A program made the position numbers and the translations under genes. Shown in pieces: positions 768-10,227 of a stretch of DNA of 64,000 bases. Source of the stretch: Colwellia sp. TT2012 (lineage in GTDB: Bacteria; Pseudomonadota; Gammaproteobacteria; Enterobacterales; Alteromonadaceae); assembly GCF_001440345.1 (NCBI RefSeq), contig NZ_LJYX01000017.1, positions 62,001-126,000 of the forward strand. Reading direction: 5' to 3'. Numbering within the stretch: position 1 is the first letter of the stretch; each line of letters begins with the position of its first letter. The notes under the pieces are model-generated. The model was not told the origin of the DNA. It worked only from the letters and a program-made list of their open reading frames with translations, and did not search any database.

Positions 768-1469
768 ATGAAAATTGAGCTAGGCTACACAGTTCCTGAT
801 GCAACACAGTCTTTAGGGATCAGATCAAATTTACTTTATGGCTGGAAACAACAGTTTAAAGAAAAACAAGTGGGTGATATTTAAAGTGGTGACGAACGCA
901 GTCAGTTGATAAAACTCCGTAAATAAGGCTTTGAGGTTGGCCGAGATAAAGTTATTCGTTTGAGGAATAAACTTGGTTTACACGTTAAACAGCGCATTGC
1001 TTATAAAATAACAACGATGCACAAGCATAGCCATAGTGTTGCAGACAATATAGTCGACCAGAAATTCAACCCAAAACAAGTAAATAAAATTTTGGCTGGC
1101 GAGGTGACGTATCTCAGAACGGGGCAAGGCTGGATGTACTTAGTGATTGTTATGGATTTATACTCTTGCCGTAATATCGGTTGGTCAATCCATAAGCAAA
1201 TGGCCGTTGGCTTGATATTTCACAGTGAACGAGGCTCTCAATATACTAGCCATCGATTTGGGCAGCAACTGAAGATGAATAATATTACCGCTTCTATCGG
1301 TGGTCGTGGTGCTTGTTTGGATAATGCAGTTGTTGAACGATTCTTTGATGATTTTAAAAACCAATGGCTGTTAAATATTTATCATTTAACACGCAGTGGT
1401 ATGAAAGAAGGTGTTGAAGATTATACCCAGATGCAAGTTTCCTGCATCTTGAAGTGGCTTGGGTACTGA
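768..1469 (+). pseudogene. IS3-family transposase remnant with internal deletions
   Basis: One frame carries remnants of both IS3 reading frames. At the start is an OrfA helix-turn-helix segment (GYTVPDATQSLGI, NLLYGWKQQ), then two in-frame stops (near 882 and 924). OrfB pieces follow: VGRDKVIRLRNKLGL, VTYLRTGQGWMYLVIVMDLY, FHSERGSQYTS, and ACLDNAVVERFF. The text jumps from OrfA 'KLRK' to the middle of OrfB, and again from the first DDE block to the second, so at least two deletions occurred. The second catalytic Asp is Glu (SERGSQ instead of the usual SDRGSQ). No functional transposase can be made. The clean ORF beginning at 960 is only the surviving OrfB part. Confidence 0.85.
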
Positions 1470-8222: not shown

Positions 8223-8570
8223 AATTCAAGCTTTTTTTAGTTTATTTATTAATAATGACAATAGACAACAAATATTTGCCAGCAGAATAACCCGCTATAT
8301 AAAAGAATAAACCTAGGGTTAACTAGGTAAAGCGCTATAAAAATCAAATATAAAGATGAAGAAATTAAGTGCAAATTAAAATAAAAATAACAAGGTAAGC
8401 AATTGATAATCAATTATTTTTTGTAATTATTTAAAATAAAGCTGCGGCTAGTTAATGCTATAGAAGGAAAATATGGGATGTTATTCCGTTGCAGGAGATA
8501 TTCTATGTTTAATTGGGTGTTTAACTGGGTGTTTATATCAAGGGGGGATATTCTAGATGATCAACAAAAC
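8223..8570. other. Intergenic, no gene seen
   Basis: AT-rich spacer between the dehydrogenase promoter and the tRNA array. It contains a short imperfect tandem (AATTGGGTGTTTAACTGGGTGTTT around 8512-8534) and no good ORF. No clear intrinsic terminator for the leftward tRNA transcript is visible. Confidence 0.4.
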
Positions 8571-8663
8571 TGGCGGAGTGGACGGGACTAGAAGCTGAGA
8601 AGAACCCTTTGGTGTGACAGACCGCCGACCTTATAAGAAGATAACCAACTGAACTACCACTCT
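8571..8663 (-). pseudogene. Degenerate tRNA-Asp-like copy 0 (3'-most, hybrid)
   Basis: It keeps an intact 3' acceptor end with encoded CCA and the flank of a good copy. The middle carries the extra nucleotides typical of the degenerate copies (after the D-loop), the T-loop GGTTCGAGTCC is damaged, and the 5' acceptor strand has a change (AGAGTGG). It looks like a hybrid between the two copy types. It is not expected to fold into a normal tRNA. Confidence 0.75.
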
Positions 8664-8732
8664 GCGTATCTTGTTTACTTTAAATGTTTAACGAAATTCC
8701 CTTCGCATCAGCTATGATGATTACAACAAAAT

Positions 8733-8809
8733 TGGCGGAGTGGACGGGACTCGAACCCGCGACCCCCGGCGTGACAGGCCGGTATTCTAACCAACTGAAC
8801 TACCACTCC
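8733..8809 (-). tRNA. tRNA-Asp (anticodon GTC), copy 1
   Basis: A 77-nt cloverleaf: acceptor GGAGTGG pairs with CCACTCC, discriminator G, encoded CCA. The D arm is GTTC/GAAT, the anticodon arm CCGGC-CTGTCAC-GCCGG with GTC, and the T arm GCGGG-TTCGAGT-CCCGT. It differs from E. coli tRNA-Asp mainly in compensated stem pairs. Confidence 0.97.
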
Positions 8810-8838
8810 GCATATCTTGTTATCTCGAGTTTATCACC

Positions 8839-8930
8839 AGGGTAAGTGAACGGGACTCGAACCCGCGAAAGACATCCGGTGTGACAGGCCGCTTATCTTA
8901 TAAAAAGCTAACCAACTGAACTACCACTCC
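8839..8930 (-). pseudogene. Degenerate tRNA-Asp-like copy A
   Basis: It starts like the intact gene (GGAGTGGTAGTTCAGTTGG) and keeps the CCTGTCAC anticodon loop and the T arm. It carries about 8 extra nucleotides between the D and anticodon arms, a longer variable region and a broken D stem (GTTC against GCTT). The 3' acceptor strand is altered (TCACTTA instead of CCACTCC) and no CCA is encoded. Confidence 0.8.
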
Positions 8931-8999
8931 GCGTATCTTGTTTACGTTGAATGTTTAACGAAATTCCTTTCGCATCAACTATGATGATTACAACAAAAT

Positions 9000-9076
9000 T
9001 GGCGGAGTGGACGGGACTCGAACCCGCGACCCCCGGCGTGACAGGCCGGTATTCTAACCAACTGAACTACCACTCC
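9000..9076 (-). tRNA. tRNA-Asp (anticodon GTC), copy 2
   Basis: Identical in sequence to the copy at 8733-8809, with encoded CCA, at exactly 267 bp distance. Confidence 0.97.
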
Positions 9077-9105
9077 GCATATCTTGTTATCTCGAGTTTA
9101 TCACC

Positions 9106-9197
9106 AGGGTAAGTGAACGGGACTCGAACCCGCGAAAGACATCCGGTGTGACAGGCCGCTTATCTTATAAAAAGCTAACCAACTGAACTACCACTCC
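9106..9197 (-). pseudogene. Degenerate tRNA-Asp-like copy B
   Basis: Same sequence as copy A, with the same insertion, broken D stem and lost CCA. Identity between broken copies shows they were copied together with their intact neighbours rather than decaying independently. Confidence 0.8.
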
Positions 9198-9266
9198 GCG
9201 TATCTTGTTTACGTTGAATGTTTAACGAAATTCCTTTCGCATCAACTATGATGATTACAACAAAAT

Positions 9267-9343
9267 TGGCGGAGTGGACGGGACTCGAACCCGCGACCCC
9301 CGGCGTGACAGGCCGGTATTCTAACCAACTGAACTACCACTCC
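9267..9343 (-). tRNA. tRNA-Asp (anticodon GTC), copy 3
   Basis: Identical to copies 1 and 2, 77 nt, encoded CCA, GTC anticodon. Confidence 0.97.
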
Positions 9344-9372
9344 GCATATCTTGTTATCTCGAGTTTATCACC

Positions 9373-9464
9373 AGGGTAAGTGAACGGGACTCGAACCCGC
9401 GAAAGACATCCGGTGTGACAGGCCGCTTATCTTATAAAAAGCTAACCAACTGAACTACCACTCC
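9373..9464 (-). pseudogene. Degenerate tRNA-Asp-like copy C
   Basis: Same sequence as degenerate copies A and B, in the same place of the 267-bp unit. Confidence 0.8.
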
Positions 9465-9533
9465 GCGTATCTTGTTTACGTTGAATGTTTAACGAAATTC
9501 CTTTCGCATCAACTATGATGATTACAACAAAAT

Positions 9534-9610
9534 TGGCGGAGTGGACGGGACTCGAACCCGCGACCCCCGGCGTGACAGGCCGGTATTCTAACCAACTGAA
9601 CTACCACTCC
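9534..9610 (-). tRNA. tRNA-Asp (anticodon GTC), copy 4
   Basis: Identical tRNA body, 77 nt, encoded CCA, GTC anticodon. The base three positions 5' of the mature end differs from the other copies (GCGTATC rather than GCATATC on the plus strand). Confidence 0.97.
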
Positions 9611-9639
9611 GCGTATCTTGTTATCTCGAGTTTATCACC

Positions 9640-9732
9640 AGGGTAAGTGAACGGGACTCGAACCCGCGAAAGACATCCGGTGTGACAGGTCGCTTATCTT
9701 ACTAAAAAGCTAACCAACTGAACTACCACTCC
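9640..9732 (-). pseudogene. Degenerate tRNA-Asp-like copy D
   Basis: As copies A to C, but with a one-base insertion (CTTACTAAAAAGC against CTTATAAAAAGC) and a base change in the anticodon stem (CAGGTCG against CAGGCCG). It has begun to diverge, consistent with lying near the array edge. Confidence 0.78.
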
Positions 9733-9802
9733 GCGTATCTTGTTTACGTTGAATATTTAACGAAATTCCTTTCGCATCAACTATGATGATTTCAAACAAA
9801 AT

Positions 9803-9879
9803 TGGCGGAGTGGACGGGACTCGAACCCGCGACCCCCGGCGTGACAGGCCGGTATTCTAACCAACTGAACTACCACTCC
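9803..9879 (-). tRNA. tRNA-Asp (anticodon GTC), copy 5 (promoter-proximal intact copy)
   Basis: Identical 77-nt tRNA-Asp with CCA. It is the first intact copy reached by transcription from the promoter at 10093-10121. Confidence 0.97.
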
Positions 9880-9908
9880 GCATATCTTGTTTATCTTGAG
9901 TTTTTCAC

Positions 9909-10000
9909 TAGGGGAAGTGAACGGTACTCAAAACCGGTAAAAGATCACTGGTCGTAACAGGCCGTTTTCCTAATAAAAGTTAACCGACTGAGCTACTACG
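9909..10000 (-). pseudogene. Degenerate tRNA-Asp-like copy E (promoter-proximal, most decayed)
   Basis: Still recognisable as the degenerate type (TAGCTCAGTCGGTTAAC, an altered CGGCCTGTTACG anticodon region, a T-arm-like GGTTTTGAGTACC). It has many substitutions in every stem. It is the outermost copy and the most diverged. Confidence 0.65.
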
Positions 10001-10058
10001 CTGCTATCTTTTGCTATAGCTTACTCAACTGACCTTAATCAATCATTACAAGCTATAG

Positions 10059-10088
10059 CCGCACTCAACAACATGTCGTTGAATGCGG
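10059..10088 (-). promoter_or_regulatory. Inverted repeat at the transcript start of the tRNA array
   Basis: An 11-bp arm (one mismatch that becomes a G-U pair in RNA) brackets an 8-nt loop. It begins about where the transcript from the 10093-10121 promoter should start. It may be a leader hairpin protecting or marking the precursor, or a DNA-level site. Confidence 0.5.
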
Positions 10089-10092
10089 CGAG

Positions 10093-10121
10093 ATAATACG
10101 GTTATGGCGCGGTGCAGTCAA
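10093..10121 (-). promoter_or_regulatory. Stable-RNA-type promoter for the tRNA-Asp array
   Basis: Leftward -35 TTGACT (10116-10121) and -10 TATTAT (10093-10098) are separated by exactly 17 bp. The discriminator after the -10 is GC-rich (CTCGCCGC), typical of stringently controlled rRNA and tRNA promoters. No coding gene other than the array lies downstream. Confidence 0.75.
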
Positions 10122-10227
10122 CCACTTTTTTAATAAAATTGACTGCATGTGTATTTGACGAGCAATCTGCTGAAAATCAAAGCATATCCGTCACTATAGC
10201 CAGGATAAATTAAAAATCGTCTTAGCT

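Follow-up and report, generated by a model that had tools for sequence, protein, structure and literature searches.

Why should intact and broken copies of one tRNA gene take turns along a bacterial chromosome, and what might keep the broken copies in place? The question is raised by a locus in Colwellia sp. TT2012, which has a 4.42-Mb draft genome in 223 contigs. The window (the whole stretch of DNA analysed) is 64,000 nucleotides long, and a neighbouring protein identifies Colwellia marinimaniae (92% identity), C. piezophila (71%) and other Colwellia as the closest relatives found. Exactly five tRNA-Asp(GTC) genes, all identical, were found on the minus strand of the window by ARAGORN and Rfam, and six degenerate tRNA-Asp copies flank and separate them. 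This alternation of five identical genes with six broken copies is what the original prediction described, and ARAGORN, Rfam and alignment confirm it. The features are given below in window coordinates and in the order of the transcript.

10093..10121, minus strand: predicted promoter TTGACT-17-TATTAT, then a G+C-rich discriminator; near-identical core in relatives
10059..10088, minus strand: inverted repeat CCGCATTCAAC ... GTTGAGTGCGG, predicted 5' end of the transcript (sequence; relatives)
9912..10001 (start and end approximate), minus strand: leader broken copy, with altered D side, anticodon arm and T loop and without CCA
9803..9879, minus strand: tRNA-Asp(GTC), good copy 1 (ARAGORN, Rfam)
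9733..9802, minus strand: S1 spacer, two hairpins, of which hairpin 2 covaries genus-wide
9646..9732, minus strand: broken copy 2 (fourth internal); together with its S2, two substitutions and one inserted base relative to the central copies
9611..9645, minus strand: S2 spacer
9534..9610, minus strand: tRNA-Asp(GTC), good copy 2 (ARAGORN, Rfam)
9465..9533, minus strand: S1 spacer
9379..9464, minus strand: broken copy 3 (central; same as copies 4 and 5), from alignment to the good gene
9344..9378, minus strand: S2 spacer
9267..9343, minus strand: tRNA-Asp(GTC), good copy 3 (ARAGORN, Rfam)
9198..9266, minus strand: S1 spacer
9112..9197, minus strand: broken copy 4 (central)
9077..9111, minus strand: S2 spacer
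9000..9076, minus strand: tRNA-Asp(GTC), good copy 4 (ARAGORN, Rfam)
8931..8999, minus strand: S1 spacer
8845..8930, minus strand: broken copy 5 (central)
8810..8844, minus strand: S2 spacer
8733..8809, minus strand: tRNA-Asp(GTC), good copy 5 (ARAGORN, Rfam)
8663..8732, minus strand: S1 spacer, diverged
8571..8662, minus strand: trailing broken copy, with 3' acceptor strand and CCA retained and T arm damaged

The 267-bp units at 8810-9076, 9077-9343 and 9344-9610 are letter-for-letter identical. Within them the three central broken copies, as had been claimed, are the same as each other, and with their S2 spacers they are identical across 121 nt. As this is an 801-bp perfect repeat in a draft assembly, reliable counting of the units takes long reads. 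Comparison of tRNA-Asp with the masked array gave five sense-strand pieces (E 9e-5 to 1e-10), no antisense matches and none in 10 block-shuffled versions; the same scan overlooked the leader copy.

The central broken copies follow the good gene over positions 1-23, after which an insert that can form a short hairpin (GCUU...AAGC) replaces the 3' strand of the D stem. A weakened anticodon stem, from which pairs have been lost, surrounds the retained CUGUCAC loop and is followed by a longer variable region, an intact T arm and an altered 3' acceptor strand without CCA. In most dead Asp copies the good gene's sequence is unchanged in the 5' half and T arm, and the insert loop varies. The anatomy first proposed (5' part, anticodon loop and T arm kept, extra bases, no CCA) thus describes the central copies, but not the two ends of the array: CCA is absent from five of the six broken copies and present in the trailing one, which also has a damaged T arm and is more decayed, and in the leader copy both the T and D arms are altered.

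Covariance scoring, proposed with the original prediction, gave 70.4 bits for each good gene and no match to the broken copies at the gathering score. No tRNA-family row appeared for the latter up to E 10, in an output from which the tool omits 10 lower-scoring same-clan matches, so that a weaker tRNA match on the broken copies is possible. They align, with inserts, to the good gene and in this sense of tRNA derivation are tRNA pseudogenes. Since inserts break the arms, and since the dead fMet and Leu copies described below have another sequence in place of the anticodon loop, ordinary tRNA function is not expected of the dead copies, which would be unable to decode.

No Rfam family other than tRNA was found at gathering scores in the whole window and ten other loci. 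The four internal T arms give a weak tmRNA match (18 nt, 11.3 bits). The best match to YrlA/bacterial Y RNA (RF02553), 24.6 bits against a cut-off of 69, covers the 3' half of a dead copy and the 5' half of a good one and was judged to be chance; rtT RNA has no Rfam row in window positions 8500-10130 up to E 10. Six dead copies, folded one at a time, have energies that are for the most part ordinary (z -0.4 to -2.3). In the minimum-energy fold of the central copy (z -0.66, also ordinary) the 5' acceptor strand pairs with the anticodon loop, rather than in a cloverleaf. An RNase E motif in the inserts was noted by eye only and is not universal.

From its sequence, transcription of the Asp array is expected to start at TTGACT-17-TATTAT with its G+C-rich discriminator (10121-10093), a promoter of the stable-RNA type. 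A simple promoter scan found 6 promoter-like sites compared with 5.1 in shuffles, which is no excess, and conservation across species is therefore the stronger argument: a near-identical core lies upstream of the Asp array in the relatives examined. The inverted repeat at 10059-10088 is long, lies immediately after the promoter and occurs in relatives too, partly shortened. The S1 spacer is constrained, and its hairpin 2 is maintained by compensatory changes across the genus. Among 21 distinct trimmed spacers, which we selected from 35, the S1 hairpins contain 24 doubly changed cells versus 6.3 in shuffles (0/500), all of them in hairpin 2.

Two further observations concern S2 and the wider window. 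The ACTCGA of S2 (for example, at 9344-9378) is complementary to the dead copy T loop TTCGAGT; leader copies have TTTGAGT with ACTCAA instead, one apparent compensated change seen by eye. An ORF at window positions 960-1469 resembles, again by eye, a piece of a DDE transposase and is perhaps an insertion-sequence remnant.

Comparison of the units in relatives, as had been suggested, revealed two such two-part units in C. marinimaniae and one in C. piezophila, at a pitch of 263-267. The C. marinimaniae Asp array has three good genes, and its dead copies comprise one leader, two internal ones and at least two trailing ones; that of C. piezophila has one internal dead copy. Many relatives lack dead copies in the array and repeat tRNA-Asp plus S1 at a pitch near 144, and in others Asp lies among Val genes, where G015 and G025 also have a dead Asp copy. 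A single dead Asp copy lies immediately after the promoter in G038, G011 has dead Asp only as a 3' remnant, and in the single-contig genome G010 a masked-spacer scan of the array yielded no piece of dead Asp.

Ordinary tandem amplification accounts for the alternation, its strictness following from tandem duplication of a two-part unit. Judging from the identical units, tRNA-Asp, dead copy and spacers were probably duplicated together by unequal recombination, which would multiply the dose of tRNA-Asp and carry the dead part along. The earlier proposal that the amplified unit was a good plus a broken copy, with the broken part carried or homogenised, agrees with the identical 267-bp units and with the smaller number of units in the two relatives.

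Although real, the finding as first described was too narrow, as dead copies are also found in several further tRNA operons and beyond the genus, elsewhere in the family. A uniform scan searched the masked spacers at each array with the good tRNAs found there (E 1e-3, 10 shuffles each). In the TT2012 genome it gave 15 dead pieces in 6 of 11 chosen arrays (Asp, Arg, Ser, Gly, fMet, Leu and Lys). Dead pieces were present in 7 of 10 arrays of G008, 3 of 9 of G010 and 6 of 9 of G006 (5 of 9 if one leaves out an array whose sole piece is a good gene truncated at the end of a contig; truncated genes of this kind also make up all or part of two more G006 pieces). Outside the genus, G045 had them in 4 of 11 arrays, its Asn array having been queried with one degenerate copy that ARAGORN accepts, and G040, of a third genus, in 0 of 9. 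There were no antisense matches and no matches in shuffled spacers in TT2012 or in any of these five genomes. The scan is conservative, having missed the Asp leader copy and trailing Asn and Lys pieces in G010 that are visible by eye.

The dead types seen overall are Asp, Gly, Leu, fMet, Arg, Ser, Asn and Lys, with Thr and Val 3' pieces also in G045. The Leu locus was scanned in 30 genomes, and 21 of them have one or more copies of the dead Leu type, in which the anticodon loop is replaced. Dead fMet copies have inserts in the D loop and the anticodon loop, those of Colwellia also in the T loop. Some dead Gly, fMet and Arg copies retain the acceptor end with CCA. Behind Asn operons (L094 after 1470, L103 after 1216) repeated units consist of an interrupted dead Asn copy with its own terminator-like hairpin. 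Some copies are called by ARAGORN as other tRNAs: dead Arg copies in TT2012 as tRNA-Ser(aga) (L082 997-1094 and 1181-1278), a dead Asp copy in G025 as tRNA-Leu (L054 1632-1723) and another in G137 as tRNA-Val(aac) (L255 1499-1589).

Beyond Colwellia, but within the family, dead copies of fMet were found in three genera, of Asp in five and of Gly in one. Full-length dead fMet occurs in six Colwellia genomes (G004, G006, G008, G009, G010 and G013) and in G045 and G068 of two other genera; a relative of it in G039, of a third, has kept a normal D loop. In an order-wide fMet search 8 of 295 genomes passed E 1e-8, with such a copy only in G004, G068 and G039; the match in G000 is a trailing piece and the remaining rows are good fMet genes at 73%. 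Dead Asp with the D-side insert at the same place is present in all five other genera, and six of 147 family genomes, TT2012 included, passed E 1e-12 in the dead Asp search. Dead Gly is found in 10 of 39 genomes of the genus and, among the 147 family genomes, in two of genus g9, one of them by BLAST only. These family-wide counts are lower bounds because strict DNA thresholds miss diverged copies and arrays broken by contig ends.

Had the broken copies been free to drift, they would vary freely in relatives, the outcome named in advance as speaking against the original prediction. This was not seen: between genomes, dead copies average 85-94% identity compared with 51-62% for ordinary spacers of the same operons. 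Mean identities of dead copies and spacers were 0.846 and 0.552 for fMet (28 dead pairs, 21 with spacers), 0.936 and 0.509 for Gly (21 pairs, all with spacers) and 0.869 and 0.620 for Leu (28 pairs, all with spacers), the best match being used for dead copies and spacers alike. For Asp they were 0.870 and 0.564 (10 of 15 pairs with spacers), the spacer being the 62 bases after each good gene, so that some follow the last gene. Mean spacer identity exceeded that of the dead copies in 3 of the 70 fMet, Gly and Leu pairs (Leu G006-G008, Leu G006-G025 and fMet G068-G045), and the single best spacer did so in 12 of the 70.

The tRNA-homologous part of a dead copy could be rewritten by the good tRNA; the inserts could not. 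In dead Gly, 18 non-tRNA insert columns differ less than 76 tRNA-homologous columns (0.085 versus 0.165 over 15 distinct copies; 0.117 versus 0.152 with one copy from each of nine genomes), with gaps counted as differences and with a copy lacking the T insert and the g9 copy dropped beforehand. The fMet D-loop insert has very few variable places over nine copies from six genomes, and is nearly the same in the six Colwellia genomes and the two other genera. Dead Gly is 100% identical in G000 and G025; the ordinary spacers of the Gly operon have an identity of 0.42 between the two genomes. The perfect match may reflect exchange via identical tRNA genes, not constraint. The conservation seen in these alignments argues against freely drifting pseudogenes, but gene conversion or interspecies exchange could also yield it.

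Covariation was not detected in the insert hairpins of Asp (15 inserts, p 0.22), fMet (18 inserts, p 0.87) or Leu (own-arm 4.8, cross-arm 4.6, means that include 7 false promoter-region matches among 34 rows). The RNAalifold covariation term was -0.1 in both the fMet and Asp sets. Two G045 copies keep the T-stem pairs at fMet columns 71-90 and 72-89 via double changes.

The best explanation, to which we give a probability of about one half, is that the locus is an amplified array carrying translation-dead tRNA copies of a family-wide kind, which would be kept as structured, non-translating parts of the tRNA precursor. Transcribed within that precursor, they might aid its spacing, folding or nuclease processing; alternatively, they might be released from it as stable tRNA-like RNAs. 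A precursor role stands at even odds, with passive retention plus conversion as a close rival.

According to this close rival, which is a serious possibility though less than an even chance, the broken copies are passive pseudogenes. They would ride on dosage amplification and owe their similarity to recombination with neighbouring identical tRNA genes and to exchange of segments between species. The mutual identity of the central copies would follow, as would good-gene sequence in the Asp 5' half and T arm beside a variable insert loop. The patchy presence of dead copies (dead Gly in a minority of the genus, the G010 array without dead Asp, none in G040), inserts without covariation and the more decayed trailing copy of the window also favour passive descent. 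Precedent comes from a survey (PMC9858662), which describes bacterial tRNA pseudogenes as longer than functional tRNA genes and suggests that genomes rich in tRNA genes might accumulate more of them. The Colwellia copies are like those described in that survey in being degenerate, longer and not expected to decode. They are unlike them in sitting in the operon of the parent tRNA, in recurring in several species and genera with conserved inserts, and in being on average more alike than spacers. Passive descent accounts poorly for the conservation of parts that have no counterpart in the good gene (the fMet D insert in three genera, the Gly inserts). Recombination between the flanking identical tRNA genes should, moreover, make the copies easy to lose, yet they recur across the family.

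That the dead copies are instead processed into stable tRNA-like RNAs with a regulatory or decoy function, for instance by sponging small RNAs or by baiting nucleases or tRNA-binding enzymes, is improbable. Many of them do lie within tRNA operons, between working genes, and some Gly, fMet and Arg copies keep an acceptor end with CCA. In E. coli (PMC5222698), 3' fragments of tRNA precursors sponge small RNAs, and RNase E generates the 5' end of the leuZ spacer RNA. The likeness offered by the 3' external transcribed spacer of leuZ is that a part of the precursor other than the tRNA can have a function as an RNA; that sponge is a spacer, whereas the Colwellia element is a dead tRNA copy. Against a regulatory or decoy function, no insert motif common to the tRNA families survives a reverse-complement control, and some trailing copies lie, by eye, behind terminator-like sequences.

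A mobile hairpin element that inserts into tRNA loops and spreads is very unlikely. Twelve hand-cut inserts from different tRNA families gave a summed score of 713 versus 601 (sd 19) in letter shuffles (0/500), but the likeness is gone against reverse-complement controls (745), and a common insert motif, with boundaries chosen by hand, was rejected. In the TT2012 genome the exact Gly insert is confined to the two dead Gly copies. A search of 50,697 phage records (E limit 1e-10) found no dead Gly, fMet or Asp, and no dead fMet or Asp, the two searched, in 72,556 plasmid records. An assembly artefact of repeats, suggested by a draft genome with three identical units and by array matches in several relatives that end at contig ends, can practically be dismissed, as the outer units differ, the arrangement recurs in other assemblies and dead copies of some tRNA are found in the single-contig genomes G010, G045, G068 and G089.

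The tyrT repeats and rtT RNA of E. coli are another comparison: there a tRNA 3' end is repeated in tandem within a tRNA operon and after it. Those repeats resemble the Lys, Arg, Asn and fMet trailing pieces found here. Unlike the tyrT repeats, the full-length interrupted copies of Colwellia alternate with working genes, and Rfam at gathering scores reports tRNA only in the window and ten other loci. tRNA array units are a mixture of many isotypes, whereas here one tRNA has been amplified together with a dead copy. Such array units (PMC5966550, PMC12803027) are a related known system. Of the papers listed by literature searches, judged by title and the opening of the abstract, none mentioned dead tRNA copies in Colwellia operons.

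What is unusual about this locus is not its alternation, but that its broken copies belong to a class of dead tRNA copies, spread over the family, whose inserts are conserved. A broader proposal is tentative and somewhat doubtful: tRNA operons of the family may encode structured RNAs that derive from tRNAs and cannot decode, with a separate kind for each parent (fMet, Gly, Leu, Asp, Arg, Asn and Lys). These would be maintained by selection across genera and co-produced with the parent tRNA as processing modules or tRNA-mimicking regulators.

Even if the copies are passive, they matter for annotation. They are a likely source of wrong isotypes, and ARAGORN miscalls would inflate and misname tRNA repertoires. 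If selection keeps them, they would be a new component of bacterial tRNA precursors and, as tRNA duplicates exapted across the family, would mark a route from tRNA gene to non-coding RNA.
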